Part shown: piece after piece, positions 16,632 through 62,636 of the stretch
How positions within the stretch are numbered: position 1 is the first letter of the stretch
Layout: every line of letters starts with the position of its first letter
NCBI RefSeq assembly: GCF_000972385.1
Contig: NZ_JXTE01000014.1
Location: 70,433-134,432, forward strand
DNA length: 64,000 nt
From: Streptomyces sp. WM6386
Lineage (GTDB): Bacteria > Actinomycetota > Actinomycetes > Streptomycetales > Streptomycetaceae
Direction: 5' to 3'
Notes under the pieces: model-generated
Databases searched by the model: none
Told to the model about the DNA's origin: nothing
Seen by the model: the letters and a program-made list of their open reading frames with translations, nothing else
Program-made: the position numbers and the translations under genes

Positions 16632-16646
16632 CGGGATCCGATTCTC
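16632..16646. promoter_or_regulatory. Degenerate GAGAAT-N3-ATTCTC site A1
   Basis: CGGGATCCGATTCTC matches 9 of 12 consensus positions, with a perfect right half. Its centre is 21 bp from site A2. It lies between the divergent hydratase-like gene and the mutase operon. Confidence 0.4.
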
Positions 16647-16652
16647 TGTAGT

Positions 16653-16667
16653 GGTATTGGCATTCTC
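16653..16667. promoter_or_regulatory. Degenerate GAGAAT-N3-ATTCTC site A2
   Basis: GGTATTGGCATTCTC matches 9 of 12 positions with a perfect right half, 28 bp before the mutase start. Paired with A1. Confidence 0.45.
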
Positions 16668-16694
16668 ATTTTCTGCAAGTAGCGTATCCGTACG

Positions 16695-18275
16695 ATGAAT
16701 GACTTCGCCCAGACCTCGTCCGGCATCCCGCTCAAGCCGGTCTACGGACCGGCGGACCGGGTCGTCGAGCCGCCGGAACCCGGGGACTTCCCGTTCACGC
16801 GCGGCAATTACGCCTCCGGCTACCGGGGCCGGCTGTGGACGCTCAGGCAGTACTCGGGGTTCGGTACCGCGGAGGAGTCCAACCGCCGCTACCGGTATCT
16901 GCTGGAACAGGGCGGCACCGGACTGTCGGTCGCCCTCGACCTGCCCACCCAGTGCGGCTACGACTCCGACGACCCCGAGGTGAGCGAGGAGGTCGGGCGG
17001 GTCGGTGTCGCCATCGACACCCTCGCCGACGCCGAGGTGCTCTTCGAGGGCATCCCGCTGGACCGGATCAGCACCAGCTTCACCATCAACGGCACGGCGG
17101 CGATCCTGCTCGCCTTCCATGTGGCCGCCGCCGAGCGCCGGGGCGTGCCGCGGGCGAAGCTGACCGGGACCATCCAGAACGACATCCTCAAGGAGTACGC
17201 CTCCCGCGGGACCTGGATCTGGCCGCCGGAGCCGTCGCTCAGACTGATCGCCGACACCATCGAGTTCTGTGCGGCCGAGGTGCCGCGGTTCAACGCGATC
17301 TCCGTCGCCGGCGCGCACTTCCGCGACGCCGGGGCCAACGCCGTGCAGGAGATGGCGTTCACGCTCGCCGACGGGGTGACGTACTGCGACACCGTGCTGG
17401 AGCGCGGGCGTATGACGATCGATCAGTTCGCACCGCAGGTCTCCTTCTTCTTCTACACGCACGGCGATTTCTTCGAGGAGATCGCCAAGTACCGGGCGGG
17501 GCGCAGGCGTTGGGCGACCATCGTCCGGGAGCGTTACGGGGCGAGCTCCGACAGGGCGGCGATGTTCCGTTTCGGCTGTGTCGCGGGCGGTGCCTCGCTG
17601 TACGCGCCGCAGGCCCGCAACAACACCGTCCGGGTCGCCTACGAGGCGCTGGCCTCCGTGCTCGGCGGTGTCCAGTCGATGTTCACGGCCGCCTGGGACG
17701 AGCCCTTCGCGCTGCCCAGCGAGGAGTCGGCCACGCTCGCCCTGCGCACCCAGCAGATCCTCGCCCACGAGACCGGTGTCGCCCGGGTCGCGGACCCGCT
17801 CGGCGGCTCGTACTTCGTCGAGGCGCTCACCGACGCCACCGAGGAGCGGATCGTCGGGATCATGGCGGATCTGGAGCGGCACGGCGGCATGGTCCGGGCG
17901 ATCGAGGACGGCTATCTGCAAGGCCTCATCGCGGACGAGGCCTACCGTGTCCATCGGGCGGTCGAGGCGGGCGAGCGGCCCGTCATCGGCGTCAACCGGT
18001 ACGCCGACGAGGACGAGCCGGCCCCCGACATCGCCACCTACGAACTCGACGCCAGGGGCCGCGAGACTCAGCTGAAACGGCTCGCCCGGGTCAAGGCCGA
18101 GCGTGACCCGGCCGCCGTCCGCACCCGACTGGCCGCCCTCGCGCGCGCCGCCGAGGGCACCGACAACCTCATGGGTCCGCTCGTCGACTGCGCGGGCGCC
18201 TACTGCACGGTCGGCGAGATGGTCACCGCCCTCAAGAACGTGTGGGGCGAGTTCCAGCAGCCGGTGGTGTTCTGA
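16695..18275 (+). CDS. B12-dependent acyl-CoA mutase, large (substrate) subunit, methylmalonyl-CoA-mutase-like
   Basis: TIM-barrel subunit of 526 residues without a B12-binding domain, the two-protein layout of archaeal methylmalonyl-CoA mutases and of isobutyryl- and 2-hydroxyisobutyryl-CoA mutases. Aligning RQYSGF and AGAHFRDAG with the Propionibacterium enzyme places Tyr53, Arg171 and His208 at the spacing of its Tyr89, Arg207 and His244. Isobutyryl-CoA mutase has Phe and Gln at the first two positions, so a carboxylated substrate such as methylmalonyl-CoA is favoured. The stop overlaps the small-subunit start (TGATG). Confidence 0.9.
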   Translation: MNDFAQTSSGIPLKPVYGPADRVVEPPEPGDFPFTRGNYASGYRGRLWTLRQYSGFGTAEESNRRYRYLLEQGGTGLSVALDLPTQCGYDSDDPEVSEEVGRVGVAIDTLADAEVLFEGIPLDRISTSFTINGTAAILLAFHVAAAERRGVPRAKLTGTIQNDILKEYASRGTWIWPPEPSLRLIADTIEFCAAEVPRFNAISVAGAHFRDAGANAVQEMAFTLADGVTYCDTVLERGRMTIDQFAPQVSFFFYTHGDFFEEIAKYRAGRRRWATIVRERYGASSDRAAMFRFGCVAGGASLYAPQARNNTVRVAYEALASVLGGVQSMFTAAWDEPFALPSEESATLALRTQQILAHETGVARVADPLGGSYFVEALTDATEERIVGIMADLERHGGMVRAIEDGYLQGLIADEAYRVHRAVEAGERPVIGVNRYADEDEPAPDIATYELDARGRETQLKRLARVKAERDPAAVRTRLAALARAAEGTDNLMGPLVDCAGAYCTVGEMVTALKNVWGEFQQPVVF

Positions 18276-18664
18276 TGGGCACCCGGATCCTCATCGCCAA
18301 GCCCGGCCTCGACGGCCACGACCGAGGCGCCAAGATCGTCGCGCGGGCGCTGCGTGACGCCGGGTTCGAGGTCGTCTTCACCGGCATCCGGCAGAAGGTC
18401 GAGGACATCGTGGCGACCGCCGTCCAGGAGGACGTCGCGATGGTCGGCCTCAGCATGCTGTCCGGGGCGCATCTGGCGCTGACCGCCAGGACCGTGGCGG
18501 GCCTGAGAGCGGCGGACGCCGGGGACATCACCGTCGTCGTCGGCGGCACCATCCCGCCGGTGGACGTGCCGCGCCTGAAGGCCGCGGGCGCCGCTGCCGT
18601 GTTCCCCACCGGAACACCCCTTGACGTCGTGGTGGCGGACGTACGCGCCCTCACCTCGCCCTGA
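18275..18664 (+). CDS. B12-binding small subunit of acyl-CoA mutase
   Basis: A 129-residue cobalamin-binding Rossmann domain. The base-off signature DGHDRG (DxHxxG, His15) would supply the lower axial ligand, followed by VGLSMLSGAHL and the GGTIPPVDVPRL nucleotide-loop segment. It is one base out from, and coupled to, the large subunit. Together they should catalyse a radical carbon-skeleton rearrangement. Confidence 0.93.
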   Translation: MGTRILIAKPGLDGHDRGAKIVARALRDAGFEVVFTGIRQKVEDIVATAVQEDVAMVGLSMLSGAHLALTARTVAGLRAADAGDITVVVGGTIPPVDVPRLKAAGAAAVFPTGTPLDVVVADVRALTSP

Positions 18665-18678
18665 CACCTGGAGGGAAC

Positions 18679-19635
18679 GTGCGGATCGGAGTCATGATCG
18701 GGCCCGAGCGGGGGGACTCGGCGCGCAAGGCCGAGCGGATGCTCGCGGATGTGGAGTGGGCCGAGTCGGCCGGGATGGACACCGCCTGGATCCCCCAAGT
18801 CCCCACGGACTTCGACGCGTTGACCGCGGTGGCGCTGATGGGGGCCCGGACCACCCGCATCGAGCTGGGCACCGCCGTCGTCCCCCTCCAGGCCCAGCAC
18901 CCCGTCGCCCTGGCCCGTCAGGCCCTCTCCACGCAGGCGGCCACCGGCGGACGGCTCGCGCTCGGCGTCGGCCCCTCGCACCACTGGATCATCCAGGACA
19001 TGCTCGGCCTGCCCTACGCCCGCCCGGCCGGCCTCACCCGCGACTACCTCGACGTCCTCGACGCGGCATGGCGCGGCCCCGGCCCCGTCGACGTCGAGAA
19101 CCGCACCTACACCGTCCACAACCCCCTCGATCTCGCCCCCGTGGCCCCGCTGCCGATCCTCCTCGCCGCCCTCGGCCCGGTCATGCTGGCCCTCGCCGGG
19201 GAGCGCGCCGACGGAACCGTGCTGTGGATGGCCGACGAACGCGCCGTCGCCGACCATGTCGTCCCGCGCATCACGAAGGCCGCCGAGAGCGCCGGACGCC
19301 CGGCACCCCGCGTCGTCGCCGGCATCCCGGTGTGTCTGTGCGCCCCGTCCGAGGTCGACGCCGCCCGCGAGCGCGCCAACCGGATCCTGGGCGAGGCCGA
19401 GATCTCGCCCAACTACCGGCGGCTGCTGGACCACGGCGACGCCAGGGACGTCGGCGACCTGTGCGCGGCGGGCGACGAGACGGCGATCCGCCGGCGCTTC
19501 AGGCGTTTCGCGGACGCGGGCGTCACCGATCTCTCCGTACGTCTGCTGCCCATCGGCGAGGGCCGCGACGAACTGGTCGCCTCCAAACGCCGCACCCGGG
19601 AGATGATCGCGGACCTCGCGGCGGAGCTCAGGTGA
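18679..19635 (+). CDS. LLM-class, probably F420-dependent oxidoreductase
   Basis: A 318-residue luciferase-like TIM-barrel protein (MRIGVMIGPERGD, ARTTRIELGTAVVPLQAQHPV, LALGVGPSHHWI) of the bacterial luciferase superfamily that in actinomycetes usually uses F420 or FMN. The GTG start has GGAGGG upstream. It sits between the mutase subunits and a CoA-transferase and is coupled to the latter by GTGA, so it probably reduces or oxidises a CoA-pathway intermediate. Substrate unknown. Confidence 0.88.
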   Translation: MRIGVMIGPERGDSARKAERMLADVEWAESAGMDTAWIPQVPTDFDALTAVALMGARTTRIELGTAVVPLQAQHPVALARQALSTQAATGGRLALGVGPSHHWIIQDMLGLPYARPAGLTRDYLDVLDAAWRGPGPVDVENRTYTVHNPLDLAPVAPLPILLAALGPVMLALAGERADGTVLWMADERAVADHVVPRITKAAESAGRPAPRVVAGIPVCLCAPSEVDAARERANRILGEAEISPNYRRLLDHGDARDVGDLCAAGDETAIRRRFRRFADAGVTDLSVRLLPIGEGRDELVASKRRTREMIADLAAELR

Positions 19636-20678
19636 CCCCCGGACCCCTTGCGGGCCTGCGCATCCTCGAAGTCGGTCACATCCTCGCGGGCCCGTTCGCC
19701 ACCATGCACCTCGCCGACCTCGGCGCCGAGGTCACCAAGGTCGAGCCGCCCGGCGGGGACCTCTCGCGCCAGGTCGGCGACGCCTACTTCGCCAGCATCA
19801 ACCGCGGCAAGCGCAGCATCTGCCTCGACCTCACCACGGACCAAGGGCAGGCACACCTGGGCGAGTTGGCGGCCGACGCGCACGCCCTGCTGGTCAACCT
19901 CAAGCCGTCGGTCGTACGACGGCTGGGGCTGACGTACGACAGTCTGCGCCGGTACAACGAGCGGATCGTCTGCGTGGCCGTCACCGGCTACGGCCTGGAC
20001 GCCGGTGACGACCCGGCCTTCGACTACGTCATCCAGGCCGCCACCGGTGTCGCCGCCCTCACCGGCGACCCCGACGGCCCGCCGACCCTGCCCGGGTACT
20101 CCTCGGTCGACAACTCCGCCGCCCTGACCGCCGCGTTGGGACTGCTCGCCCAGATCGTGTCCGGCCGCGGCGGGCAGGTCGACGTGGCGCTGCGGGACGT
20201 GATGCTGTCCCAGCTCAACTACCGGGCGTCCGCCTACCTCAACGACGGGGTCGAGCCGCGCCGGCTGCCGTTCGGCGCGCACGCGTACTACGTGCCGGCC
20301 CAGCTGTTCCCCACGGCGGCAGGCCACTTGGCCCTGTTCATCACGCACGACGGCTTCTGGAAGACCTTCGCCGCGGAGGCCGGTGTCGAGGGCTTCCCGA
20401 CCATGGCGGAGCGGGCGGAGCGGCGGGACGAGGTCCTCGACGTCGTCACGCGGGCACTGAGCTCCGACACCGCCAAGCGCTGGGAGGCCCGGCTGCGGCC
20501 GCTCGGCATCGCGGCGGCGGCCGTCCGCACACTCCCCGAGGCCCTGGCGGCGACACCCGAGGTGATCGTGCAGGCCGGTGACTTCAGGCTGGTCGGCAGT
20601 CCCATCAGGATCGCCGGATACGAGCCCGCCTACGGCCCGCCGCCCGAGCTGGGCTCACTCGTAGTGGACGGTGACTGA
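19632..20678 (+). CDS. CaiB/BaiF (class III) CoA-transferase
   Basis: Cytoplasmic family III CoA-transferase or racemase of 348 residues: LRILEVGHILAGPFATMHLADLGAEVTKVEPP at the start (key residues GPFATM and KVEPP), NRGKRSICLDL, and GGQVDVALRDVML in which the catalytic Asp is expected. Alpha-methylacyl-CoA racemases belong to the same family and would fit a branched side-chain pathway. It ends the mutase operon and overlaps the end of the convergent reductase gene by 24 bp. Confidence 0.9.
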   Translation: MTPGPLAGLRILEVGHILAGPFATMHLADLGAEVTKVEPPGGDLSRQVGDAYFASINRGKRSICLDLTTDQGQAHLGELAADAHALLVNLKPSVVRRLGLTYDSLRRYNERIVCVAVTGYGLDAGDDPAFDYVIQAATGVAALTGDPDGPPTLPGYSSVDNSAALTAALGLLAQIVSGRGGQVDVALRDVMLSQLNYRASAYLNDGVEPRRLPFGAHAYYVPAQLFPTAAGHLALFITHDGFWKTFAAEAGVEGFPTMAERAERRDEVLDVVTRALSSDTAKRWEARLRPLGIAAAAVRTLPEALAATPEVIVQAGDFRLVGSPIRIAGYEPAYGPPPELGSLVVDGD

Positions 20679-21647
20679 TCCCTCGTCGGGTACGCCCTGA
20701 CAGGTGAGGACATAGCCCTCGGCCACCTCGTCCTGCGTCAGGGCGTCGTTCACACGCATGGTGGCGCTGCCCTCGGTGATCCTGGCCATGCAGGTGGCGC
20801 AGTTGCCCGCCTCGCAGGAGAAGGGCGGGGTGAGGCCGGCCCGCCGGGCGCTCTGCAGAAGCGTCTCGTTCGGGTGCTTCGTGATGGTGGCGCGCTTGGT
20901 GCCGAGGACGATGGTGACGGTGCCGCTGTCCACCGGCTGTGCCACGGGCGGTGGCTCGGGCGCTGCGCCGAACCGCTCGCTGAACACCCGGCCCGGCCCC
21001 GGCAGCACCGTCTCCACCAGCTCCATGAAGGGCTCGGGCCCGCACACATACGCGTCCGCACCGCCCTCCGCACCGACGAACTCCCGTATCGCGTCCGCGT
21101 CGAGGAGTCCCCGCTCGGCATCGAGATGCCGTACGACGGTCAGCCGGCCCGGGAACTTGGCGGCCAGCTCCGTCAGCGCCGCGTCGAAGATCGCCGAGGC
21201 CCGGTCCCGGTCGGCGCACAGCAGCCGCACCGGCCGGCAGGTCGCGGCCAGCGCGCTCTTGGCCAGGGAGAGGATCGGGGTGATGCCGCTGCCGCCGCTG
21301 AAGCCGAGCAGCGGAGTCTGTGCCGGACGCAGACAGAACAGGCCCCGCGGCTGGGTGAGTTCGACCTCGTCGCCCTCGCCGACATGGTCGTGCAGCCAGT
21401 TGGAGACCTTGCCGCCGGGGACGCGCTTGACCGTCGTCATCAGCTCGGCGTCCGTCTCCGGGGCGCTCGACATCGAGTAGGAGCGCAGCAGCTCCTTGCC
21501 GTCGGCCCGGATCCGGAAGACACAGAACTGCCCTGCCTGGTAGGCGAACGGGCCGTCGTGCGGGTCGAGGACGAAGGTCCGGGCGTCGGGAGTCTCCTGG
21601 ACGATCTTGACGACGGTCGCGCGCCGGAACAGGGCGGGGCTCGCCAT
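20655..21647 (-). CDS. Ferredoxin-NAD(P)H reductase with C-terminal 2Fe-2S domain (oxygenase reductase, KshB/HcaD/PaaE-like)
   Basis: A 330-residue electron-transfer protein. The FAD domain carries RSYSMSS (about residue 55), the NAD(P) domain GFSGGSGITPIL and YVCGPEPFM, and the plant-type ferredoxin domain CEAGNCATC plus a distal LTCQ cysteine. It should feed electrons to a Rieske oxygenase such as the one at 57031, the only candidate here, since no reductase lies beside that gene. The Shine-Dalgarno GAGGAGGG is excellent. A perfect regulon operator lies 44 bp upstream. Confidence 0.92.
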   Translation of the reverse strand: MASPALFRRATVVKIVQETPDARTFVLDPHDGPFAYQAGQFCVFRIRADGKELLRSYSMSSAPETDAELMTTVKRVPGGKVSNWLHDHVGEGDEVELTQPRGLFCLRPAQTPLLGFSGGSGITPILSLAKSALAATCRPVRLLCADRDRASAIFDAALTELAAKFPGRLTVVRHLDAERGLLDADAIREFVGAEGGADAYVCGPEPFMELVETVLPGPGRVFSERFGAAPEPPPVAQPVDSGTVTIVLGTKRATITKHPNETLLQSARRAGLTPPFSCEAGNCATCMARITEGSATMRVNDALTQDEVAEGYVLTCQGVPDEGSVTVHYE

Positions 21648-21690: not shown

Positions 21691-21705
21691 GAGAATACTA
21701 TTCTC
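21691..21705. promoter_or_regulatory. Perfect regulon operator B
   Basis: GAGAATACTATTCTC, 12 of 12 arm positions, between the divergent oxygenase reductase and acyl-CoA synthetase operon. Confidence 0.85.
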
Positions 21706-21745: not shown

Positions 21746-23149
21746 ATGAGAGAACGGGCCGCGCTGGTCTTCGAGGACCGGGAGTACACCCTGGCCGCAC
21801 TGGAGGGCCTCGCGGACGGGCTGGCCGGCGAGTTGGAGCGGCGAGGTGTGCGGGCGGGGGAGCGGGTCGCGCTGATGTCCTCCAACCGGCCCGAGTTCGT
21901 GGTCGCGGTGCGGGCCGTGTGGCGGCTCGGCGCGGCGGTCGTGCTGCTCAGCCCGGCCTGGAAGCGGGGCGAGGTGGAACACGCCCTGGAGATCACCGGG
22001 GCGAGGCACGCCGTCGGTGACCATCCGGTGCTGGCGGAACTGATGCCGATGCGGCACCTGGACGAACCGGTCGCCCCCGGGTCGGGCTCCTTCGCACGAT
22101 CCCCCGAACAGGCCGACGCCGTCCTGGTGTTCAGCTCCGGCACGACCGGCATGCCCAAGGCCGTACGGCACACCCACGCGTCCCTCGCCGCCGCCGTACG
22201 GCACTGGCGCGACGCCCTGCGACTGACGTCACGGGACCGCATCCAGATCGCCACACCGCCCTCGCACATCCTCGGCCTCCTCAACATCGTCACCGCCCTG
22301 GAGACGGGCGCCTGGCTGCGGCTGCACCGCCGCTTCGACCTCGACCGGCTGCTCCAGCACATCGAACGCGACCGCATCACCGTCGAGATGGCCGTCGCCC
22401 CCATCGCACTCGCCATCGCCTCGCACCCGAAGCTGGAGTCGTACGACCTCTCCTCGCTCCGCTACATCATGTGGGGCGCCACACCGGTCACCCCGAGCGT
22501 CGCCGAGGCCGTCACCCGGCGCACCGGGGTCGGCTGGGTGCCCGCCTACGGAGCCACCGAACTGCCCGTCATCGCCTGCAACCCGCTCGACGGGGCCCGC
22601 CTGGACACCCCGGGACGGCCCGTGCCGGGGGTCAGCGCGCGGGTGGTCTCCCTGGACACCGGGCTGCCGGTCGGGCCGGGGGAGAGCGGCGAGATCGAGG
22701 TCCGCTCCGACTCCCTGATGGCCGGCTATCTGCCCGCCGAGGCGACGGTGGAGGCCCTGCACGACGGCTGGTACCGGACCGGGGACGTCGGCAGTCTCGA
22801 CGCCGACGGCTGGCTGCGGCTCACCGACCGCTCCAAGGAGATGATCAAAGTGCGGGCGTTCCAGGTCGCGCCCGCGGAGGTGGAGGCCGTGCTGCACGGC
22901 CATCCCGCGGTCGCCGACTGCGCGGTGTTCGGCGTCCCCGACCCGGCCGACGGGGAGGCGATCGTCGCGGCCGTACGCACGACCCGCCCGGTGGCGGCGG
23001 CCGAGCTCATCGAACTGGTCGGCGCGCGGCTCGCCTCCTACAAGCGACCGAGCCATGTGGAGTTCGTGCCAGAGATCCCCCGCCTGCCGTCCGGCAAGGT
23101 CCTGCGCCGGGTCCTCAAGGAGCGTCATGGATGTCCGTCTGACAGCTGA
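21746..23149 (+). CDS. Acyl-CoA synthetase (AMP-forming)
   Basis: A 467-residue ANL-superfamily ligase that would activate a carboxylic acid to its CoA thioester. The P-loop FSSGTTGMPKAVRHTH, the PAYGATELPVIA motif, WYRTGDVGSLDADGWL and the C-terminal PRLPSGKVLRR with the catalytic lysine are all visible. It is shorter than typical fatty-acyl ligases. First gene of an operon with a split acyl-CoA dehydrogenase and a hydratase, overlapping the next gene by 23 bp. The start ATG has a weak ribosome-binding site close to operator B. Confidence 0.92.
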   Translation: MRERAALVFEDREYTLAALEGLADGLAGELERRGVRAGERVALMSSNRPEFVVAVRAVWRLGAAVVLLSPAWKRGEVEHALEITGARHAVGDHPVLAELMPMRHLDEPVAPGSGSFARSPEQADAVLVFSSGTTGMPKAVRHTHASLAAAVRHWRDALRLTSRDRIQIATPPSHILGLLNIVTALETGAWLRLHRRFDLDRLLQHIERDRITVEMAVAPIALAIASHPKLESYDLSSLRYIMWGATPVTPSVAEAVTRRTGVGWVPAYGATELPVIACNPLDGARLDTPGRPVPGVSARVVSLDTGLPVGPGESGEIEVRSDSLMAGYLPAEATVEALHDGWYRTGDVGSLDADGWLRLTDRSKEMIKVRAFQVAPAEVEAVLHGHPAVADCAVFGVPDPADGEAIVAAVRTTRPVAAAELIELVGARLASYKRPSHVEFVPEIPRLPSGKVLRRVLKERHGCPSDS

Positions 23150-24020
23150 ACAACGTCAACTACGCGCTGCGGCGGCCCGGTTGGCCGACCATCTCGGTCC
23201 CGGCTCTGTCCTCGACCTGGACGACGGCGACCGCATCGCACGGCTGGAGAAGGCCGTCGAGGCCACCGGCTGGCGGGCCCTGCGCTCGGACGGGGCGTCG
23301 GGGGTCGAAGTCGCCCTGGTGGTCGAGGAGTTCGGGCGCGGCCTGGTCGACGTACCGCTCCTGGGCCCCGTACTCGCCGACGACCTGGCCCCGGGGGTCC
23401 CGGCGGCCACCGTCGTCGTGGACGGCGGGGCGCGGGACGCGCGGGGCCTGCGCAAGGGCGTCTTCGCGGAAGGCGGCCGTGTGCTGGCCGTCGACATCGG
23501 CCCCCTCATCCCGGGCGCCGACCTGACCCGCCACAACGCCTCCGTCACCGGCCCGCCGGAACGGATCGGCACCCTGAGCGCCGAAACCTGCGCCCGCCGA
23601 CGGGCGTTGGCCCTCGTGGCCACCACCGCCGACCTGGTCGGCACGGCCCGTGGCGCCCACACGCTGGCCGTCGCCCACGCCAAGCTGCGTGAGCAGTACG
23701 GCAGGCCGATCGGCACCTACCAGGCCGTGGCCCATCTGCTCGCCGAGGGACTGGCGTCCATCGAGGGCTCGGTGAGCGTGCTGCGGCACGCGGCCTGGGC
23801 GGTCGACGAGCTCACGCCCGAAGAGGCGCTCAGGGCGGCCCGGATCGCGAAGCTGTACTGCGCCCGCGCCGCCCGCACCGTCTGCGAGACGGCGATCCAG
23901 GTGCACGGCGGCATCGGCAACACCTGGGAGTGCCTCGCCCACGTCCATCTGCGGCGCGCCCTGGCGTCCACCGAGCTGTTCCCCGTACGCCTGGAGGAGA
24001 TCGACCGTGGACTTTCGTGA
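23127..24020 (+). CDS. Acyl-CoA dehydrogenase, small partner subunit (pair 1)
   Basis: A 297-residue half-type acyl-CoA dehydrogenase. It lacks the EPGAGSD segment of the beta-barrel domain but has REQYGRPIGTYQAVAH and the active-site VHGGIGNTWE with Glu268 where MCAD has its catalytic base. The missing elements are in the next gene. This is the arrangement of the heterotetrameric steroid-side-chain dehydrogenases of mycobacteria (ChsE-type). An AAGGAG lies before ATG 23127 inside the synthetase gene. Electrons would go to ETF. Confidence 0.9.
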   Translation: MDVRLTAEQRQLRAAAARLADHLGPGSVLDLDDGDRIARLEKAVEATGWRALRSDGASGVEVALVVEEFGRGLVDVPLLGPVLADDLAPGVPAATVVVDGGARDARGLRKGVFAEGGRVLAVDIGPLIPGADLTRHNASVTGPPERIGTLSAETCARRRALALVATTADLVGTARGAHTLAVAHAKLREQYGRPIGTYQAVAHLLAEGLASIEGSVSVLRHAAWAVDELTPEEALRAARIAKLYCARAARTVCETAIQVHGGIGNTWECLAHVHLRRALASTELFPVRLEEIDRGLS

Positions 24021-25095
24021 CTCCCCGCAGGAGGCCGCCTTCCGGGAGCGGCTGCGGACCTGGCTGACCGAGCGGGCCGGGGAGTTCCCGACCTCGGGCG
24101 ACGCCTACTGGGCGCGGCAGGGGGACTGGCACCGGGCGCTCCACGCGGCCGGCTTCTTCGGACTGTCCTGGCCCAAGGCGTACGGCGGTCAGGAACTGCC
24201 GCCCGTCTACGACGTCATCCTGGACGAGGAACTGGCCCGCGCCGGGACCCCGGCCCGCCCCAGCCTCGGCTACCTCGTGCAGGGCCTGGGCCGGCACGGC
24301 AGCGAGGAGCTGCGCCGCCGGTTCCTGCCCGGCATGATCGACGGCACCGAGCGCTGGTGTCAGGGCTTCAGCGAACCCGGTGCCGGGTCCGACCTCGCGG
24401 CCCTGACCACCAGCGCCACCCGTGACGGCGACACCTACGTCGTGCGCGGCCACAAGATCTGGACCAGCTACTCCGACGTCGCCGACCGGTGCCTGCTCCT
24501 CGCGCGCACCGATCCCGACGTACCCCGGCACGAGGGCCTCTCGGCGTTCGTGATCGCCATGAACCAAGTCGGCATCGAGCAGCGCCCGTTGACGATGATG
24601 AACGGGGTGACCAAGGAGTTCGGCCAGGTCCTCTTCGACGGCGCGACCGTGCCCGCGGACCAGATGGTCGGAGCGCCCGGCGAGGGCTGGGCGCTCGCCA
24701 TGACGGTCGTGGGGCATGAGCGGGAGCCCGCGACGCTGGGCTTCTCGGCCCGGTACGGCAAGCTCGTACGCGAACTCGCCGCCCGCACGCCGGGCGCCGC
24801 GCCACCGGAGCTGGCCTGGGCCGTCGTGGAGACGGAGATGCTGCGCCTGCACGTAAGGCGGCGGCTGTCCGAGCAGCTGGACGGGGTCTCGCACGGCCCG
24901 GAGGGGTCGTTGGACAAGCTGCTGATGACCTGGACGGAACAGACGGTCGGGCACGCGGCCCTCGCGATCGGCGGCACCGGCGACCCGGAGCTGCTGAACG
25001 CGTACCTCTACACCCGGGCGCAGAGCGTCATGGGCGGCACCTCGCAGATCCAGAAGAACATCATCGCCTCGCGCATCCTCGGACTGGGAGCCTGA
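24007..25095 (+). CDS. Acyl-CoA dehydrogenase, large partner subunit (pair 1)
   Basis: A 362-residue partner to the preceding protein. It has FSEPGAGSDLAAL and IWTSYSDVADR of the FAD/substrate-binding middle domain and MGGTSQIQKNIIASRILGL for FAD binding, but no GGxGxTxE active-site strand, which the small subunit supplies. GTG start with GGAGGAG, overlapping the small subunit by 14 bp, so equal production is likely. Confidence 0.92.
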   Translation: MDFRDSPQEAAFRERLRTWLTERAGEFPTSGDAYWARQGDWHRALHAAGFFGLSWPKAYGGQELPPVYDVILDEELARAGTPARPSLGYLVQGLGRHGSEELRRRFLPGMIDGTERWCQGFSEPGAGSDLAALTTSATRDGDTYVVRGHKIWTSYSDVADRCLLLARTDPDVPRHEGLSAFVIAMNQVGIEQRPLTMMNGVTKEFGQVLFDGATVPADQMVGAPGEGWALAMTVVGHEREPATLGFSARYGKLVRELAARTPGAAPPELAWAVVETEMLRLHVRRRLSEQLDGVSHGPEGSLDKLLMTWTEQTVGHAALAIGGTGDPELLNAYLYTRAQSVMGGTSQIQKNIIASRILGLGA

Positions 25096-25096
25096 C

Positions 25097-26728: not shown

Positions 26729-26743
26729 GAGAGTAGCATTCTC
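26729..26743. promoter_or_regulatory. Regulon operator C
   Basis: GAGAGTAGCATTCTC, 11 of 12 arm positions, between the divergent SDR and thiolase genes. Confidence 0.8.
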
Positions 26744-33957: not shown

Positions 33958-33960
33958 GCC

Positions 33961-51888: not shown

Positions 51889-51903
51889 CAGAATAGCGTT
51901 CTC
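51889..51903. promoter_or_regulatory. Regulon operator H1 (tandem)
   Basis: CAGAATAGCGTTCTC, 10 of 12, 22 bp upstream of the dehydrogenase start and abutting the TetR start. Centre 21 bp from H2. Confidence 0.7.
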
Positions 51904-54137: not shown

Positions 54138-54326
54138 TCAGCTGACGCTGATGGCGCGTTCGGGACACATCCCGGCGGCGGAGCGCACGACGTCCTCGAA
54201 CTCGGCGGGGACGTCCGGGGTCTCGACCACGGCGTAGCCGTCGTCGCCGATGTCGAACACCTCGGGGCAGAGCGAGCAGCACACACCGTGTCCCCGGCAG
54301 CGGTCGTCGTCCACGGTGACCTGCAT
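54138..54326 (-). CDS. 3Fe-4S ferredoxin (P450 partner)
   Basis: A 62-residue ferredoxin: CRGHGVCCSLCPEVF and a distal MCPERAI cysteine. The second CxxC position is Gly-His, the pattern of 3Fe-4S P450 redox partners. TGATG coupling to the P450 gene makes the pairing firm. No ferredoxin reductase lies beside them. Confidence 0.92.
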   Translation of the reverse strand: MQVTVDDDRCRGHGVCCSLCPEVFDIGDDGYAVVETPDVPAEFEDVVRSAAGMCPERAISVS

Positions 54327-55603
54327 CAGGACTCGCTCCACTCCAGGCCGAGGTGGGTGAGTCCGCGCAGGATGAAGGTCGGGACGTACTGGTAGCGGCG
54401 GGCGTCGGCCGGTCCGTGCGCTCGTTCGGAGATACGGATGTCCGAGGTGCGGTCCAGCAGTCGTTCGATGGTCACCCGGGCCTCGGCGCGGGCCAGCGGG
54501 GCGCCCGGGCAGGCGTGGACACCGCGGCCGAAGGCCATGTGCCGTCGCACGTTCGCCCGGGCGACGTCGAAGGCGGCCGGGTTCTCGAACTGGCGCGGAT
54601 CGCGGTTCGCGGCGCCGTTGAGCACCATCACCGTGGTGCCAGCCGGGAGCGCGACCCCGCCGACCGTGGTCGGTACCTTCGACAGCCGGAAGTCGCCCTT
54701 GACCGGGCTCTCGATGCGCAGGGTCTCCTCGATGAAGTTCGGGATGCGGTCGCGTTCGGTACGCAACAGCCGTTGCAGGTCGGGCTGTTCGGCGATCAGC
54801 CGCAGCGCCGCGCTGAGCAGGCGGACGGTGGTCTCCTGGCCCGCCGCGAAGAGGTTGGCGGCGACCCGGACCACGTCGGCGACCTCGGGTGTCGAGCCGT
54901 CCGGGAAGGTCGCGGTGGCCAGACCCGTCAGCACGTCCGCACGCGGTGCGCGGCGGCGCTCCTCGACGTACGCCGTGAAGCGGCCGTACAGATACTCCAG
55001 CGGGGAGTGGCCCATCGTGTCGTCGCCCGTGCTGCCGATCCCGGCCTCGTCCTGAGGCCGCCGCTGGAGCTTCGCCATGAACTCCTGGCGGTCCTCCTCG
55101 GGCACGCCGAGCAGGTCGGCGATGACCAGCAGGGTGAAGGGTCCGGCGAAACCGCCGATGAACTCCCCTTCGCCCGGGGCGAGATACGTGTCCAGGAGAG
55201 CGTCGGCGAGGTGCCACATGGACGCCTCGTTCTCCTTGAGGCGCTTCGGCGTGATCAGCCGCATCAACAGGGCGCGATGGTCCGTGTGCGTGGGCGGATC
55301 GAGGGTGGGCAGCTGGTCGCTCATCGGAAGCTCGGCGCGGTGCCGCTCGATGAGCCCGCTGATGTCGTCGCCCTCCAGCGGCACCGGGAAGCCCGGGAAG
55401 GGGCCGCTGACGGAGACGCAGGCGGAGAAGGCGTCCGTGTCGTTGTAGACCTGCGACGCCTCTTCGTACCCGGTCACCATCACCACGTCGTGATGGCTCT
55501 CGCGCTGCACGGGACACCGCCCGCGCAGCGCCTCGAAGTAGGGATAGGGGTCCGCGACGAGCGCCTCGTCCCGGAAGAAGTCGATCGCCTCGAAGTCGTC
55601 CAC
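54326..55603 (-). CDS. Cytochrome P450
   Basis: A 425-residue soluble bacterial P450: I-helix AGQETT (254-259), EETLR (292-296) and heme loop FGRGVHACPG with Cys365 as thiolate ligand. The acid-alcohol pair is Glu-Thr instead of Asp-Thr. It should hydroxylate the pathway substrate or its side chain, using the adjacent ferredoxin. GTG start (55601-55603). Operator I lies 90 bp upstream. Confidence 0.95.
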   Translation of the reverse strand: MDDFEAIDFFRDEALVADPYPYFEALRGRCPVQRESHHDVVMVTGYEEASQVYNDTDAFSACVSVSGPFPGFPVPLEGDDISGLIERHRAELPMSDQLPTLDPPTHTDHRALLMRLITPKRLKENEASMWHLADALLDTYLAPGEGEFIGGFAGPFTLLVIADLLGVPEEDRQEFMAKLQRRPQDEAGIGSTGDDTMGHSPLEYLYGRFTAYVEERRRAPRADVLTGLATATFPDGSTPEVADVVRVAANLFAAGQETTVRLLSAALRLIAEQPDLQRLLRTERDRIPNFIEETLRIESPVKGDFRLSKVPTTVGGVALPAGTTVMVLNGAANRDPRQFENPAAFDVARANVRRHMAFGRGVHACPGAPLARAEARVTIERLLDRTSDIRISERAHGPADARRYQYVPTFILRGLTHLGLEWSES

Positions 55604-55692: not shown

Positions 55693-55707
55693 GAGAGCGC
55701 CATTCTC
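55693..55707. promoter_or_regulatory. Regulon operator I
   Basis: GAGAGCGCCATTCTC, 10 of 12, with a perfect right half, between the P450 and the divergent CMD-like operon. An extra ATTCTC half-site lies at 55657. Confidence 0.65.
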
Positions 55708-56957: not shown

Positions 56958-56974
56958 CGAGAATAGCATTCTCG
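56958..56974. promoter_or_regulatory. Perfect regulon operator J
   Basis: GAGAATAGCATTCTC (56959-56973) flanked by C/G, perfect palindrome, 57 bp upstream of the Rieske oxygenase start. Confidence 0.87.
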
Positions 56975-57030
56975 TACGGAGAGACTGAGATTATCGTTCC
57001 TCCGTACAGCCGACTGGAGGACCAGACCCC

Positions 57031-58302
57031 ATGGCGCACTTCAAGAAGCCCGAAGCGGGCAGCTGGACCGAGCACCTCAAGATCGGCACGGAGCCGGTCA
57101 GTTACGAGGACTCGATCTCGCCCGAGCACTACGAACGCGAGCGGGACGCGATCTTCCGGCGGACCTGGCTGAACGTCGGCCGCGTGGAGCAACTCCCCAA
57201 GCGGGGCAGCTTCTTCACCAAGGAGCTGGACGCGGCCCGCACCTCGGTCATCGTCGCCCGCGGCACGGACGACGAGGTGCGCGCCTTCCACAACGTGTGC
57301 CGGCACCGCGGCAACAAGCTCGTGTGGAACGACTTCCCGCGCGAGGAGACCAGCGGGGTCTGCCGCCAGTTCACCTGCAAGTACCACGCCTGGCGCTACG
57401 ACCTGGAGGGCAAGCTCGCCTTCGTCCAGCAGGAGCAGGAGTTCTTCGACCTCGACAAGTCGAGTTACGGGCTGAAGCAGGTGCAGGCGGAGGTGTGGGA
57501 GGGGTTCGTCTTCGTGAACCTCGACCCCGAGAACACCACCCCGCTACGGGAGTACCTGGGCGAGTTCGCCCACGGCATCGAGGGCTATCCGTTCCACAAG
57601 ATGACGCAGGCCCACAAGTACCGGGCCGAGATCGGCGCCAACTGGAAGCTCTTCATCGACGCGTTCGCCGAGTTCTACCACGCGCCGATCCTGCACGCGG
57701 GCCAGTACACCTCCGACGAGGCCCGCAAGATCCAGAAGTACGGCTACGAGGCGCTGCACTACGGCATCGACGGCCCGCACAGCATGGTCTCCTCGTGGGG
57801 CGGCATCGCCCCGCCGCACGACCGCGCGATGGTCAAGCCCATCGAAGGCGCCCTGCGCAGCGGTCTGTTCGGCCCGTGGGAGGCGCCGGACATCGGTGTG
57901 GAGACGGCGGACCTGCCGTCGGCCATCAACCCGACCCGCGACAAGCGCTGGGGCATGGATTCCTTCGTCTTCTTCCCCAACTTCATGCTGTTGGTCTGGC
58001 GGCCCAACTGGGTGCTCACCTACCACTACTGGCCGACCGCCTACAACACCCACATCTTCGAGGCGACCTGCTACTTCGTCCCGCCGCAGAACGCCTTCCA
58101 GCGCCTCCAGCAGGAGCTGGCCGTCGTCTCGTTCAAGGAGTACGGCCTCCAGGACGGCAACACCCTGGAGGCGACGCAGACGATGCTCGAGTCGCGCGCG
58201 GTGAGCGAGTTCCCGCTCAACGACCAGGAGGTCCTGCTCCGGCATCTGCACCAGACCGCCCGCCAGTACGTCAGCGACCACGAGCAGCGCACCGCGTCTT
58301 GA
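57031..58302 (+). CDS. Rieske non-heme iron oxygenase, alpha subunit
   Basis: A 423-residue ring-hydroxylating oxygenase. Rieske ligands are Cys90, His92, Cys116 and His119 (CRHRG, CKYHAW). The mononuclear-iron site is FAEFYHAPILH with His217 and His222, Glu214 replacing the bridging Asp of dioxygenases as in choline-monooxygenase-type enzymes. There is no beta subunit, so an alpha3 assembly is likely. Electrons probably come from the reductase at 20655, under the same operator type. Confidence 0.94.
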   Translation: MAHFKKPEAGSWTEHLKIGTEPVSYEDSISPEHYERERDAIFRRTWLNVGRVEQLPKRGSFFTKELDAARTSVIVARGTDDEVRAFHNVCRHRGNKLVWNDFPREETSGVCRQFTCKYHAWRYDLEGKLAFVQQEQEFFDLDKSSYGLKQVQAEVWEGFVFVNLDPENTTPLREYLGEFAHGIEGYPFHKMTQAHKYRAEIGANWKLFIDAFAEFYHAPILHAGQYTSDEARKIQKYGYEALHYGIDGPHSMVSSWGGIAPPHDRAMVKPIEGALRSGLFGPWEAPDIGVETADLPSAINPTRDKRWGMDSFVFFPNFMLLVWRPNWVLTYHYWPTAYNTHIFEATCYFVPPQNAFQRLQQELAVVSFKEYGLQDGNTLEATQTMLESRAVSEFPLNDQEVLLRHLHQTARQYVSDHEQRTAS

Positions 58303-58313
58303 GGAGACCGAAC

Positions 58314-58646
58314 ATGCCCACTGCCGTCTTCCCGCCCGAGTTCGCCGCCCTGGAGCCGTTCGCCGACTGGGCGGTGCCGACCGAGAAGGCCCGCTACGCC
58401 AAGCGGATCGCCTCCACCATGGATGAGCTCGACGCCTTCTACGACACGGCGTTCCCGCTGCTGAAGGGCGGCACGGAGTATCTCCAGAACGTATCGATGC
58501 AGGACATCTCCGAGCCGGACAAGCATCTGCTGTGGCTGTTCTGCGCGCTGGTGACCGTCGCCTTCTCGGTGGAGGCCTGGCGTCAGCCCAAGGTCCCCGA
58601 CACCGGACCCGCGAGCATCGACGCCGTGGTCGAGCCGGCCGTCTGA
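58314..58646 (+). CDS. Small protein coupled to Rieske oxygenase
   Basis: A 110-residue helical protein (LEPFADWAVPTEKARYAKR, LLWLFCALVTVAFSVEAW). Not recognised by name. The hydrophobic stretch is short and may be buried or membrane-associated. It lies 11 bp after the oxygenase with a GAGGAG ribosome-binding site and is coupled to the next gene (TGATG), so it is probably an oxygenase accessory. Confidence 0.8.
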   Translation: MPTAVFPPEFAALEPFADWAVPTEKARYAKRIASTMDELDAFYDTAFPLLKGGTEYLQNVSMQDISEPDKHLLWLFCALVTVAFSVEAWRQPKVPDTGPASIDAVVEPAV

Positions 58647-59905
58647 TGCCCCGCCCCCGCACCCCTCAGCCACCCGTCCGTCTCCGCAGCGCCCGGATGC
58701 TCGCCGTCGACAAGGGGGAACTCGTCGAGCCGGGTGACCTGTTGATCGAGGGCGACCGCATCACCGCGATCGCCCCGACGACGGTCCCCGAGGACGCCGT
58801 GGAGATCGACCTCGGCGACCTCACCCTCCTGCCGGGCCTGATGGACATGGAGGTCAACCTCCTGCTCGGCGGCCCCGACCACCGCAGCCCGCTGAACGCG
58901 GTCCAGGACGACCCGGCCGTACGCACCCTCCGTGCCGTGGCCAATGCCCGCCGGACGCTCCGCTCGGGCTTCACGACCGTACGGAACCTCGGTCTGTTCG
59001 TGCAGACGGGTGGGCTGTTGCTGGACGTGGCCCTGAAGAAGGCGATCGATCTCGGCTGGATCGAGGGGCCGAGGGTCGTCCCGGCGGGCCACGCCATCAC
59101 CCCGACCGGCGGTCACCTGGACCCGACGATGTTCCAGGCGTTCGCCCCGCACATCATGCCCCTCACCGTCGAGGAGGGGATCGCCAACGGCGTCGACGAG
59201 GTGCGCAAGGCGGTCCGCTACCAGATCAAGCACGGCGCCCGGGTCATCAAGGTGTGCGCGTCCAACGGCGTCATGTCCCACACGGGCCCGGCCGGTGCCC
59301 AGCAGTACTCCGACGAGGAACTGCGGGCGATAGCCGACGAGGCGCACCGGGCCGGTCTGAAAGTGGCGGCCCACTGTATGGGAGACAAGGCGGTCCGGGC
59401 CGCGCTGGACGCGGGCATCGACTGCATCGAGCACGGCTTCCTGGCGAGCGACGAGGTCCTGGACCTGATGGTGGAGCGGGGCACGTTCCTGGTGGCCACC
59501 ACGTACATAGCCGACGGCATGGACGTCTCCAAGGCAGCACCCGAACTCCAGGCCAAGGCCGCCGACGTGTTCCCCCGCGCCAAGGCGACGATCAGCCGCG
59601 CCATCGAACGGGGCGTGCGTATCGCCTGCGGGACGGACGCCCCGGCGGTCCCGCACGGCAGGGGAGCGAAGGAACTGCTGGCGTTGGTCGACCGAGGCAT
59701 GACCCCCCTGGCAGCCATCCGCGCCGCGACGACGGTAGCCGCCGACCTGATCGACGCGGACGACCGGGGCCGCCTGGAACCGGGCCTCCTGGCCGACGTG
59801 ATCGCCGTCCCGGGCGACCCCCTGACGGACATCGGCGTGACCGAGGACGTCCGGTTCGTGATGAAGGGCGGCCAGGTGTACCGGCACGAGGACACGGCAG
59901 GCTGA
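58646..59905 (+). CDS. Amidohydrolase family protein lacking the HxH motif
   Basis: A 419-residue imidazolonepropionase-like amidohydrolase. The strand-1 motif expected as DxHxH reads LPGLMDMEVNLL, that is Glu and Asn in place of the histidines. Later elements are normal: HGARVIKVCASNGV with the bridging Lys, AAHCMGDKAV, CIEHGFLASDE and GTDAPAVPHG. It may bind one metal or use another chemistry. Third gene of the oxygenase operon. Confidence 0.88.
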   Translation: MPRPRTPQPPVRLRSARMLAVDKGELVEPGDLLIEGDRITAIAPTTVPEDAVEIDLGDLTLLPGLMDMEVNLLLGGPDHRSPLNAVQDDPAVRTLRAVANARRTLRSGFTTVRNLGLFVQTGGLLLDVALKKAIDLGWIEGPRVVPAGHAITPTGGHLDPTMFQAFAPHIMPLTVEEGIANGVDEVRKAVRYQIKHGARVIKVCASNGVMSHTGPAGAQQYSDEELRAIADEAHRAGLKVAAHCMGDKAVRAALDAGIDCIEHGFLASDEVLDLMVERGTFLVATTYIADGMDVSKAAPELQAKAADVFPRAKATISRAIERGVRIACGTDAPAVPHGRGAKELLALVDRGMTPLAAIRAATTVAADLIDADDRGRLEPGLLADVIAVPGDPLTDIGVTEDVRFVMKGGQVYRHEDTAG

Positions 59906-59935: not shown

Positions 59936-60334
59936 GTGTTCGAATACCACGGCTGGATCACGGTCCGCGAGACCGCCGAGGACGATGACGACGACGCCCG
60001 GCTCCAGGAGATCGTCGACGGCATCGCGGCGCGCATCCGGGAGCTCGACAGCCCGTACCTGCTCGACCTGAGGTGGATGAACGGAGAGGCGTTCATCCAC
60101 CTCGGGGGCTTCCGCAACCACCATGACCCAAAGATCCCTGCGTTCTTCCGCGAGGTCGGACAGCGGGCTCCCGGCTCCTACGGTCTGCTGCACCTGTGGG
60201 ACGACGAGGACCCGGGCCGCGAGAACGAGTTCCGGGTCCTGCGGCTGGTCCGTGGCCGGGTGGCCGAGGACACGGAGACGCTGCTGTCACCGTGCATCCC
60301 CGTGCTGGAGGACCCCTTCACACCTTCCGCGTGA
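59936..60334 (+). CDS. Imm7-family immunity-like protein
   Basis: A 132-residue protein beginning FEYHGWITVRETAED and containing LLDLRWMNGEAFIHLGGFRN, features of immunity protein 7 from polymorphic-toxin systems. A TAGTCT -10-like box 9 bp before the GTG suggests a leaderless transcript. No toxin gene is adjacent, so it may be an orphan immunity gene. It overlaps the convergent SDR by 17 bp. Confidence 0.75.
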   Translation: MFEYHGWITVRETAEDDDDDARLQEIVDGIAARIRELDSPYLLDLRWMNGEAFIHLGGFRNHHDPKIPAFFREVGQRAPGSYGLLHLWDDEDPGRENEFRVLRLVRGRVAEDTETLLSPCIPVLEDPFTPSA

Positions 60335-61082: not shown

Positions 61083-61088
61083 GGGCGA

Positions 61089-62573
61089 TCAGCCTTTCCG
61101 TAGCGTCGTCAGCAGCCGGCGCCGCAGGAGCTTTCCGGTGGGGGTGTACGGGAGTTCGTCGCGGAAGACGACCACGTCCGGTGTCTTGGAGCCCCGCAGC
61201 CGGGCACGCACCCAGGCGCGCAGCGCATCCGCGTCGACGCTCGCCCCCGCGTGGGTGACCACGAACGCGGCGATCCGCTCACCCCATTCCTCGTCCGGCA
61301 CCCCCACCACCGCGGCCTCGCGTACGGCGGCATGCCGCAGCAGCACGTCCTCGACCTCGGCCGGGGCGATGTTCTCCCCGCCCCGGATGATGGTGTCGTC
61401 GGCGCGGCCCTCGATGAACAGGTAGCCGTCGTCGTCGAAGTGGGCGAGATCGCGCGTGTGGAACCAGCCGTCCGGCGCCGGGAGTGTGGCGTCCCCCATG
61501 TACTCCCCGGACACCTGCGGTCCGCGCACCCACAACTCGCCCGCCACACCGGCAGGTTGGGCGGCTCCCGACGCGTCCCGGATCTCCGCCTCGACCCCCG
61601 GCACCATGCGTCCGGCCGACCGCAGTCGTGCCCGCTCGGTCGGATCGGCGCAGGACAGGGCGGCCCGGTGGTCCTCGGGGCCCAGCAGCGCGATGGTCGA
61701 ACTGGTCTCGGTCAGGCCGTAGGCGTTGGTGAACCCGGTGTCCGGGAAGGCCCGCAGAGCGGCCTCCAGCACGGTGTGCGGCATCCGGGCCCCGCCGTAC
61801 GCCAGCGACCGCAGCGTCGGCACCTCGGCCGGCCGCCCGTCCAGATGCTCGACGACTCGGGCCAGCATGGTCGGTACGACCATGGCGGACGTGACCCCTT
61901 CGGAGCGCACCAGCCGCAGCCAGGCCCCGGGTTCGAAGGCGCCGAGATGCACCATGCGCCGCCCCGCGTAGAGGTTGCTGAGCACGGAGCCGACGCCCGC
62001 CACGTGGTACGGCGGCACACTGGCCAGCACGGCGTCGTCCGGGGACGCGGAGCCGAACTCCACGGTCTGCAGGACGTAACTGCTCAGATGCCGATGACGC
62101 AGAACCGCCGCCTTCGGTGCGGCAGTCGTCCCGCTCGTGAACAGCAGCACGGCCGGGTCGTCCGCGTCCGCCTCCCGGCCCTCGACCGGCTCCGCCGCCA
62201 GCCCCTGGGCCAGAAGGGCTTCGGGGGTACGGACATCGAGACCCGGGAACGCTCCGGCAAGCTCTTCGTCGGCGACCACCAGAGGTTTCCCGGTGTGCTT
62301 GAGCAGACCGGCCAACGCCGCCTTCGACAACCGGTAGTTGACCGGCACCAGTGGCACACCTGCCAGCGCGGCACCGAGCAACAACACGGTGAAGGCAGGC
62401 CCGTTGACCCCCGCGAACACCAACTCCCGGGCGCCGCTGCGGTGGACGACGGACGCGACACCCGCCGCGGCCCGTCGCAGCCGCGCACAGGTCATACCGG
62501 AGTCGCGCGGGCCGACCGCCACCCGGTCCGGATCGCCGGCCACGGCCATGTCGAGCAACATCGCGATGTTCAA
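61089..62573 (-). CDS. Acyl-CoA synthetase (AMP-forming)
   Basis: A 494-residue ANL ligase: LLFTSGTTAAPKAAVLRH (P-loop), NAYGLTETSSTIAL, WFHTRDLAHFDDDGYL, GGENIAPAEVEDVLL and PTGKLLRRRL with the catalytic Lys. The TTG start at 62571-62573 has AAGGAAG eight bases upstream, while ATG 62561 has none, so TTG is preferred. Divergent from the last dehydrogenase across operators K1/K2. Confidence 0.92.
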   Translation of the reverse strand: MNIAMLLDMAVAGDPDRVAVGPRDSGMTCARLRRAAAGVASVVHRSGARELVFAGVNGPAFTVLLLGAALAGVPLVPVNYRLSKAALAGLLKHTGKPLVVADEELAGAFPGLDVRTPEALLAQGLAAEPVEGREADADDPAVLLFTSGTTAAPKAAVLRHRHLSSYVLQTVEFGSASPDDAVLASVPPYHVAGVGSVLSNLYAGRRMVHLGAFEPGAWLRLVRSEGVTSAMVVPTMLARVVEHLDGRPAEVPTLRSLAYGGARMPHTVLEAALRAFPDTGFTNAYGLTETSSTIALLGPEDHRAALSCADPTERARLRSAGRMVPGVEAEIRDASGAAQPAGVAGELWVRGPQVSGEYMGDATLPAPDGWFHTRDLAHFDDDGYLFIEGRADDTIIRGGENIAPAEVEDVLLRHAAVREAAVVGVPDEEWGERIAAFVVTHAGASVDADALRAWVRARLRGSKTPDVVVFRDELPYTPTGKLLRRRLLTTLRKG

Positions 62574-62599
62574 GAGGAGGTCTTCCTTTCGAGACGAGC

Positions 62600-62614
62600 G
62601 CGAACGATATTCTA
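62600..62614. promoter_or_regulatory. Degenerate regulon operator K1 (tandem)
   Basis: GCGAACGATATTCTA, 9 of 12. Centre 22 bp from K2. Confidence 0.45.
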
Positions 62615-62621
62615 CTTACAG

Positions 62622-62636
62622 GGAAACCACATTCTC
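62622..62636. promoter_or_regulatory. Degenerate regulon operator K2 (tandem)
   Basis: GGAAACCACATTCTC, 9 of 12, with a perfect right half 12 bp before the dehydrogenase start. Confidence 0.5.

Follow-up and report, generated by a model that had tools for sequence, protein, structure and literature searches.

A GAGAAT-N3-ATTCTC palindrome as the probable operator of a TetR-controlled catabolic gene cluster in Streptomyces sp. WM6386

In Streptomyces sp. WM6386, a group of catabolic operons is preceded by copies of the palindrome GAGAAT-N3-ATTCTC, which raises the question of whether these operons form a single regulon, which protein reads the palindrome, and what class of compound the encoded enzymes attack. 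We analyzed a stretch of 64,000 nucleotides (the window), which covers positions 70433-134432 of contig C46, ends where that contig ends, and belongs to a 9.2-Mb genome assembled in 856 contigs (genomes, contigs and loci carry our working numbers, prefixed G, C and L). Genes were called with our own codon-based script, whose predicted starts may err by a few codons, and were named with Pfam and NCBIfam. Taken as a whole, the data support with considerable confidence the explanation that TetR1, a TetR-family protein of 222 aa encoded at 29209-29877 (-), is an autoregulated repressor of a catabolic gene set and acts through this operator.

Operator sites in the window and the genome

Allowing up to two mismatches, we found ten sites in the window against 0.46 expected, a number reached in 0 of 100 shuffles. 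Nine of them had been listed in the original prediction and were recovered at the same positions: four perfect copies (21691-21705, 29971-29985, 36036-36050 and 56959-56973), two with one mismatch (26729-26743 and 51910-51924) and three with two mismatches (29189-29203, 51889-51903 and 55693-55707), while the tenth, at 56981-56995 with two mismatches, was absent from that list. All ten are intergenic by our gene calls, with intergenic DNA making up approximately 7% of the window. The earlier description of the sites as lying in promoter gaps, mostly between divergent operons, held for five of the eight gaps: 21691 lies between a reductase gene (-) and the gene for acyl-CoA ligase 1 (+), 26729 between a short-chain dehydrogenase (SDR) gene (-) and a thiolase gene (+), 29971 between TetR1 (-) and the second of three split acyl-CoA dehydrogenase (ACAD) pairs (+), which is an autoregulatory position, 51889 and its partner 51910 between an ACAD11-like operon (-) and a second TetR gene, TetR2 (+), and 55693 between a CYP150-like P450 gene (-) and a CMD/dehydrogenase operon (+). 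The other three gaps each serve one operon, with 29189 upstream of a thioesterase gene (-) and downstream of TetR1, 36036 upstream of the CMD/SnoaL/split ACAD pair 3 operon (-), and 56959 together with 56981 upstream of the Rieske oxygenase operon (+). The enzyme classes said to stand behind the sites (ligase, split dehydrogenase, hydratase, thiolase, thioesterase, P450 and Rieske oxygenase) are all present in the gene map.

The original prediction had also proposed a genome-wide scan, in which perfect sites proved nearly confined to the cluster and not frequent in unrelated places. The 9.2-Mb genome holds five perfect sites, four in the window and one at C334:5423, and three sites with one mismatch, two in the window and one at a gene end on C457; seven of the eight sites with at most one mismatch are thereby located in the window or on C334. 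We then scored the window with a weight matrix trained on relatives' sites of no more than one mismatch, with the window itself, C334 and G028 excluded from the training. The same ten sites took ranks 1-10 with 12 to 32 bits, all intergenic and led by 21691 with 32.2 bits, and five shuffled windows gave a maximum of 7.8 bits; this ranking is partly circular because the training sites were chosen with the same pattern, and the intergenic position alone is independent of it. The relatives' regions contained 74 sites with no more than one mismatch, 68 of them intergenic. The distance from site to start codon had a median of 43 bases (quartiles 22 and 91, 155 starts), a short distance that suits repression, and among 82 sites 42 faced divergent starts, 36 had a start on one side and 4 had none.

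Many sites are paired. Around these 82 primary sites, which were drawn from related clusters and hence are not independent, secondary sites with at most four mismatches numbered 65 over all 55 offsets, most of them at an offset of 22 (n = 28) or 21 (n = 10), followed by 28 (n = 7). A partner at 21-22 bp was present for 36 of the 82 primary sites, whereas 500 trials with shuffled flanks averaged 0.5 and never exceeded 3. The pairs in the window are 51889/51910 (21 bp), 56959/56981 (22 bp) and 29949/29971 (22 bp), the site at 29949-29963 being a weak partner with three mismatches, and 26729 has a weak partner at 26707. Judged from the spacing, which equals two helical turns, the arrangement suggests two dimers on the same face of the DNA. 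Two further weak sites, 62600 and 62622, are also 22 bp apart and precede an ACAD gene at 62649, with scores of 4.8 and 5.8 bits that fall within the range of the shuffled windows.

The probable cognate regulator

The claim that a single TetR-type factor acts on one operator is strongly supported by comparative genomics, namely by co-occurrence, upstream sites and kept site-gene pairings, and the factor indicated is TetR1. This protein scored 38.4 bits against PF00440 (cut-off 24), as a protein with a TetR_N DNA-binding domain does, and among the best 120 of its 5516 homologues all names, where given, were of the TetR/AcrR kind. Its AlphaFold model has ten helices, with a mean predicted local distance difference test (pLDDT) score of 84.3, and the invariant alignment columns are concentrated between residues 16 and 91, where the DNA-binding domain lies. 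We examined the TetR1 loci in named genomes for the best 80 of at least 302 relatives, many of them related mycobacteria, of which one had no upstream DNA and 79 were scored; the closest was that of Streptomyces sp. S3(2020), with 96% identity. Within 200 bp upstream of TetR1, a site was perfect in 71 of the 79 loci, had at most one mismatch in 74 and at most two in 77, and the reversed control gave 0.

Site and regulator also occur together across the genus. Among 246 genus genomes, our own included, a perfect site is missing from 232 and present in 14, TetR1 is present in 14, and both are present in 12 (Fisher P = 1e-16, uncorrected for kinship); all 12 genus genomes with at least two perfect sites carry TetR1. 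G156 carries TetR1 twice and has 11 perfect sites, one at 8.95 Mb and the rest in two groups separated by about 0.5 Mb; it may contain the island twice. Outside the genus, G073 and G078, with three sites each, have TetR1, and a plasmid search with TetR1 gave no match at E ≤ 1e-40. As an inverted repeat placed close both to the gene of its regulator and to the target genes, GAGAAT-N3-ATTCTC has the arrangement by which a TetR operator is recognized, and on these sequence grounds it is very probably the operator of the TetR1 regulon, on which TetR1 in all likelihood acts as a repressor.

The second TetR gene of the window, TetR2 (52000-52557, +), was considered as master regulator of the operator, since it adjoins a paired site both here and in G013, and its relatives in G078 and G102 (40% and 37% identical) belong to operons whose first gene follows a perfect site. 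Its distribution does not follow the site, however: scored at E ≤ 1e-20 with 13 candidates per genome, TetR2 was found in 6 of the 12 genus genomes with at least two perfect sites compared with 12 of 12 for TetR1, its total of eight genus genomes includes G234 and G264, which have TetR2 without TetR1 and no perfect site, and a 70% identical relative in G105 has no adjoining site with at most one mismatch. A master role of TetR2 is very unlikely and was rejected on genome co-occurrence; the protein is probably a target or a local regulator. In-frame stops were seen in TetR1 of G174 (C2:3304357-3305001, TGA) and in TetR2 of G186 (C1:90988-91533), and both genes look inactivated from their sequences.

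With TetR1 as the regulator, control of the cluster could proceed as follows. A TetR1 dimer would bind each 15-bp palindrome, in most cases some tens of bases ahead of the start codon, and many promoters would take up a second dimer 21-22 bp from the first. A pathway intermediate would release TetR1; this is probably an acyl-CoA thioester, and we place the chance of an acyl-CoA inducer at about even. Release would then switch on oxygenases, CoA activation, several specialized beta-oxidation cycles and probably uptake, a set that would serve a single branched or polycyclic compound, for which an isoprenoid- or steroid-like structure is the likeliest.

Conservation and limits of the gene island

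In a set of 100 genomes, our own included, perfect sites occurred in eight, with several in our own genome, G013, G014, G073 and G078 and one each in G028, G062 and G099. Where there were several they were mostly grouped, one of six lying elsewhere in G014 and one of three in G078. The regions around the relatives' sites contain many of the same genes in shuffled orders, many of the gene starts that have a site here have one there too, and the same site-gene pairing was found in M. peregrinum, M. triplex, Actinomadura sp. OS1-43 and Prauserella endophytica. Six of seven named genomes had perfect sites, the exception being S. canus, and control sites numbered 0 in all seven. Counted by regions, a site with at most two mismatches was faced by the SDR gene in 7 of 7, by TetR1 in 8 of 8, by two heads of the C334 type in 8 of 8 and 7 of 7, and by the reductase gene in 8 of 9.

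Three genomes with TetR1 and no perfect site served as natural controls, namely that of S. canus (G106) and the two such genomes in the set of 246, S. pseudovenezuelae (G011, by its identical coordinates the genome of L056) and G174. None of them has the split ACAD of 33961-35064 (E ≤ 1e-80), which the same search found in G014 and G073, so the absence of perfect operators goes with the absence of the targets. In the loci L052 (S. canus) and L056 (S. pseudovenezuelae), TetR1 is 92% and 83% identical, the site upstream of it has two mismatches, and the 10-kb flanks are free of the cluster; the gene apparently occupies the same chromosomal position in both. One flank holds relatives of the window genes at 11441-14066 and the other relatives of the GntR and CoA-transferase genes of C334. 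Judged from this gene order, the end of C46 and the start of C334 are probably neighbours, C334 being the probable continuation of C46, and the left edge of the island probably lies near 14.1-14.3 kb. These two loci may be remnants after loss of the island or may represent an earlier state. The extent of about 47 kb given earlier is corrected here: the sites themselves cover 21.7-57.0 kb, the cluster starts near the edge just described, and further genes of the same kind lie on C334. The start of that contig encodes CoA-transferases, two AMP ligases, amidohydrolase 2, a hydratase, TauD, an SDR, an aldehyde dehydrogenase, a P450 and a fused ChsH2/Ltp2-type aldolase.

Several observations weigh against a TetR1 regulon of this form. 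Beyond the partial circularity of the matrix and the kinship of many mycobacterial TetR1 loci, 6 of the 74 relatives' sites lie inside predicted genes, and 36 of 41 two-mismatch sites in the genome lie outside the cluster. This last figure favors taking the repeats for a chance palindrome or a general promoter element, and the reversed pattern, used as a control, gave 15 sites at up to two mismatches, so that only the strict sites are informative; these are nearly confined to the cluster, occur in 14 of 246 genus genomes and track TetR1, which leaves chance or a promoter element with a negligible probability. Single perfect sites without TetR1 were present in two genus genomes (G028 and G182), as they were in G062 and G099 outside the genus, and in L056, despite the absent cluster, a site with one mismatch is retained immediately downstream of TetR1. 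The 50 Foldseek matches listed for TetR1 in the Protein Data Bank (PDB), EthR2, FadR, QacR and others at 14-21% identity, leave its ligand undecided. A site was faced less often by the CMD gene (6 of 8 regions), the thiolase gene (4 of 9) and the Rieske oxygenase gene (3 of 8), and 22 gene families, mostly of inner genes, never face a site. Two operons of the window add to this, the transporter operon at 36699, where the gap before it reaches at most 1.9 bits, and the mutase operon at 16695, which is preceded by a weak site at 16653 (8.9 bits); neither has a convincing site of its own. The earlier inclusion of uptake in the regulon is thus without a site in the window but finds support in LivHM, which faces a site in G013 and G014 (2 of 5 regions), and both operons likely belong to the TetR1 regulon here. 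Uptake here may run through the Liv-type transporter; in the Prauserella cluster, the genes for the ATP-binding cassette (ABC) transporter are only about 30% like LivG.

Enzymes, substrate and known regulons

The genes behind and between the sites allow some statements on the substrate. The first operon of the set, at 16695-20678 (+), encodes the large and small subunits of a B12-dependent acyl-CoA mutase, an LLM-class oxidoreductase that scores above the cut-off of the F420-dependent family TIGR03564, and a CoA-transferase III. The best solved match of the mutase is 2-hydroxyisobutyryl-CoA mutase, with which it shares separate large and B12-binding subunits. At the two positions that discriminate between this enzyme and methylmalonyl-CoA mutase, the protein has Tyr and Arg instead of the Ile and Gln of that enzyme, and the assignment to 2-hydroxyisobutyryl-CoA mutase was rejected on this ground. 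Compared with methylmalonyl-CoA mutase, the equivalents of Tyr89 and Arg207 are kept, whereas the His-Arg before Gly-Tyr89 reads Gln-Cys here; the Arg207 equivalent makes it likely, on the level of sequence, that the mutase handles a carboxylated intermediate.

The mutase operon is followed by the flavin/2Fe-2S reductase gene (20655-21647, -), an operon for the acyl-CoA ligase, split ACAD pair 1 and an enoyl-CoA hydratase (21746-25870, +), the SDR gene (25927-26694, -), the thiolase gene (26775-27923, +), the acyl-CoA thioesterase gene (28336-29157, -), split ACAD pair 2 with an enoyl-CoA hydratase (30031-32980, +), and split ACAD pair 3 with a SnoaL-like and a CMD-family protein (33196-36012, -; one ACAD of this pair is the one at 33961-35064). 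Among the split ACAD subunits, the second one of pair 2 was compared with the PDB, where its nearest entry is Tcur3483, followed by 4x28, and one split ACAD resembles pimeloyl-CoA dehydrogenase at a score below that family's cut-off. Two operons without a site of their own in the window come next, one for an aldehyde dehydrogenase, a binding protein, the Liv-type ABC transporter and two small proteins (36699-43761, +), and one for amidohydrolase 2, an SDR, a CoA-transferase III, a hydratase and an ACAD (43782-49131, +).

At 49558-51866 (-), an APH-type kinase and its neighbour ACAD match the two halves of ACAD11 (8v3v), the kinase over residues 45-320 and the ACAD over residues 418-770, and each is homologous to its half. 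ACAD11 is among the top matches, with 9o56 and 3dxp scoring higher for the kinase and 4hr3 for the ACAD. The pair thus combines a kinase and an ACAD as the LvaA-LvaC and ACAD10-ACAD11 systems do, in separate proteins here versus a single ACAD11 chain. According to PMC11342911, that system feeds 4-hydroxyacyl-CoAs into beta-oxidation. A relative of this kinase stands under a perfect site off the main cluster in G078 (C1:5632001), G102 (C1:231750) and G104 (C22:72839), in the first two together with its ACAD and a TetR2 relative. Farther to the right, the P450 encoded at 54326-55603 (-), with ferredoxin and DUF1330 genes downstream, is CYP150-like (6dcd, E = 2.7e-159). The operon at 57031-59905 (+) encodes the Rieske oxygenase, whose nearest match, over its first half only, is carnitine monooxygenase, together with a small protein and amidohydrolase 1. 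The fused aldolase on C334 (L016:16400-18043, +) unites ChsH2-like and Ltp2-like parts in one chain of 547 aa, both parts resembling the steroid side-chain aldolase ChsH2-Ltp2 (6ok1), which consists of two proteins.

Split ACAD pairs, Ltp2-like aldolases and CYP150-type P450s are familiar from the breakdown of bulky isoprenoid-derived rings or side chains. Together with the B12 mutase and the ACAD11-like pair, they suggest a bulky, branched or polycyclic substrate, and we consider an isoprenoid- or steroid-like compound about as probable as not. CYP150A5 of M. marinum oxidizes beta-ionone (PMC6237146). The regulon may also be real and its substrate not isoprenoid but, for example, an alicyclic or branched aliphatic acid, a polyketide fragment or a xenobiotic, as the Liv-type transporter, the several CoA-transferases and amidohydrolases, the pimeloyl-CoA dehydrogenase-like ACAD and the likely carboxylated intermediate of the mutase would suit; the three split ACAD pairs, the aldolase and the P450 speak against such a substrate through their customary association, and we regard it as a genuine if somewhat weaker prospect. 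That the genes serve one substrate class by an undescribed pathway, as originally proposed, is plausible.

We further compared the system with known TetR regulons. The KstR and KstR2 cholesterol regulons of mycobacteria and rhodococci likewise combine a TetR repressor, short palindromes, many dispersed catabolic operons, autoregulation and split steroid-type ACADs, and a cholesterol regulon of this type would account for the ACAD nearest Tcur3483, the ChsH2-Ltp2-type aldolase and the TetR regulation. Nevertheless, the operator differs, as had been predicted: against the consensus sequences, the window has 0 perfect KstR matches and one KstR2 match with one mismatch against 1.24 expected, which is at chance level. 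TetR1 matched the solved KstR and KstR2 proteins at E values of 3e-4 to 1e-3, weaker than those of other TetR proteins, so it is not their orthologue by this measure, and the enzyme set also differs as far as it was recognized. No family named for KstD, KshA/KshAB or HsaC was among the general Pfam and NCBIfam matches, Pfam having few families that specific and the genome not having been searched for these enzymes. KstR or KstR2 as the regulator was rejected on the comparison of operator and protein, and a regulon of their type is highly improbable.

Another candidate came from a palindromic motif X found in phytosterol-induced mycobacterial genes and assigned to the Rv0767c orthologue G155_05115 (PMC6593523). 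In both systems, an actinobacterial TetR protein goes with a palindrome upstream of genes for P450, SDR and aldehyde dehydrogenase, and our first guess, from the Rv0768-like aldehyde dehydrogenase, P450, CMD and dehydrogenase genes, was that TetR1 is the Rv0767c orthologue. We examined four 4.4-kb Rv0768-type loci, from M. vaccae, M. peregrinum, M. triplex and M. manitobense, in which the Rv0767c position presumably adjoins the Rv0768-type gene. The gene at that position was 28% identical to TetR1 in one locus and gave no match at E ≤ 1e-3 in three, and GAGAAT-N3-ATTCTC was absent from all four at up to two mismatches. Instead, the four intergenic stretches beside the Rv0768-type gene (L176-L179) have TGGACA-N2-TGTCCA in common, and the comparison with motif X runs through this palindrome of the locus. 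An enrichment of GAC/GTC in Rv0767c sites, given in PMC10312376, agrees with this sequence, which is likely the operator of the Rv0767c-type regulator. With both the TetR protein and the locus palindrome differing, orthology of TetR1 to Rv0767c was rejected by synteny and palindrome, and membership of our cluster in that regulon is highly improbable as well.

In the open-access literature we found no paper naming a GAGAAT-N3-ATTCTC operator. The TetR1 cluster may, with chances that we judge balanced, be a further large TetR regulon for the degradation of rings or isoprenoids beside those of KstR and KstR2, on an island exchanged among Streptomyces, mycobacteria, Actinomadura and Prauserella. 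One often-paired operator would then control an undescribed route in which three split ACADs and the fused aldolase work together with a B12 mutase, acting on a branched and carboxylated intermediate, and with a kinase/dehydrogenase step of the ACAD11 type. Generically named ligases, dehydrogenases, P450s and oxygenases would thereby be gathered into one regulon with a named regulator and a searchable operator. The substrate question also becomes testable, with the repressor and a reporter for an inducer screen and the operator to supply the gene list. A bearing on the mycobacterial CYP150/ferredoxin genes, which PMC6237146 discusses in the context of secondary metabolism, is possible through CYP150 family similarity only.

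Two minor features of the window were recorded. ARAGORN called a tRNA-Val at 23544-23643 (-) within a predicted protein gene, which is probably false. A gene for an Imm7-type immunity protein lies within the catabolic cluster at 59936-60334 (+), with no toxin recognized among the scanned neighbours.

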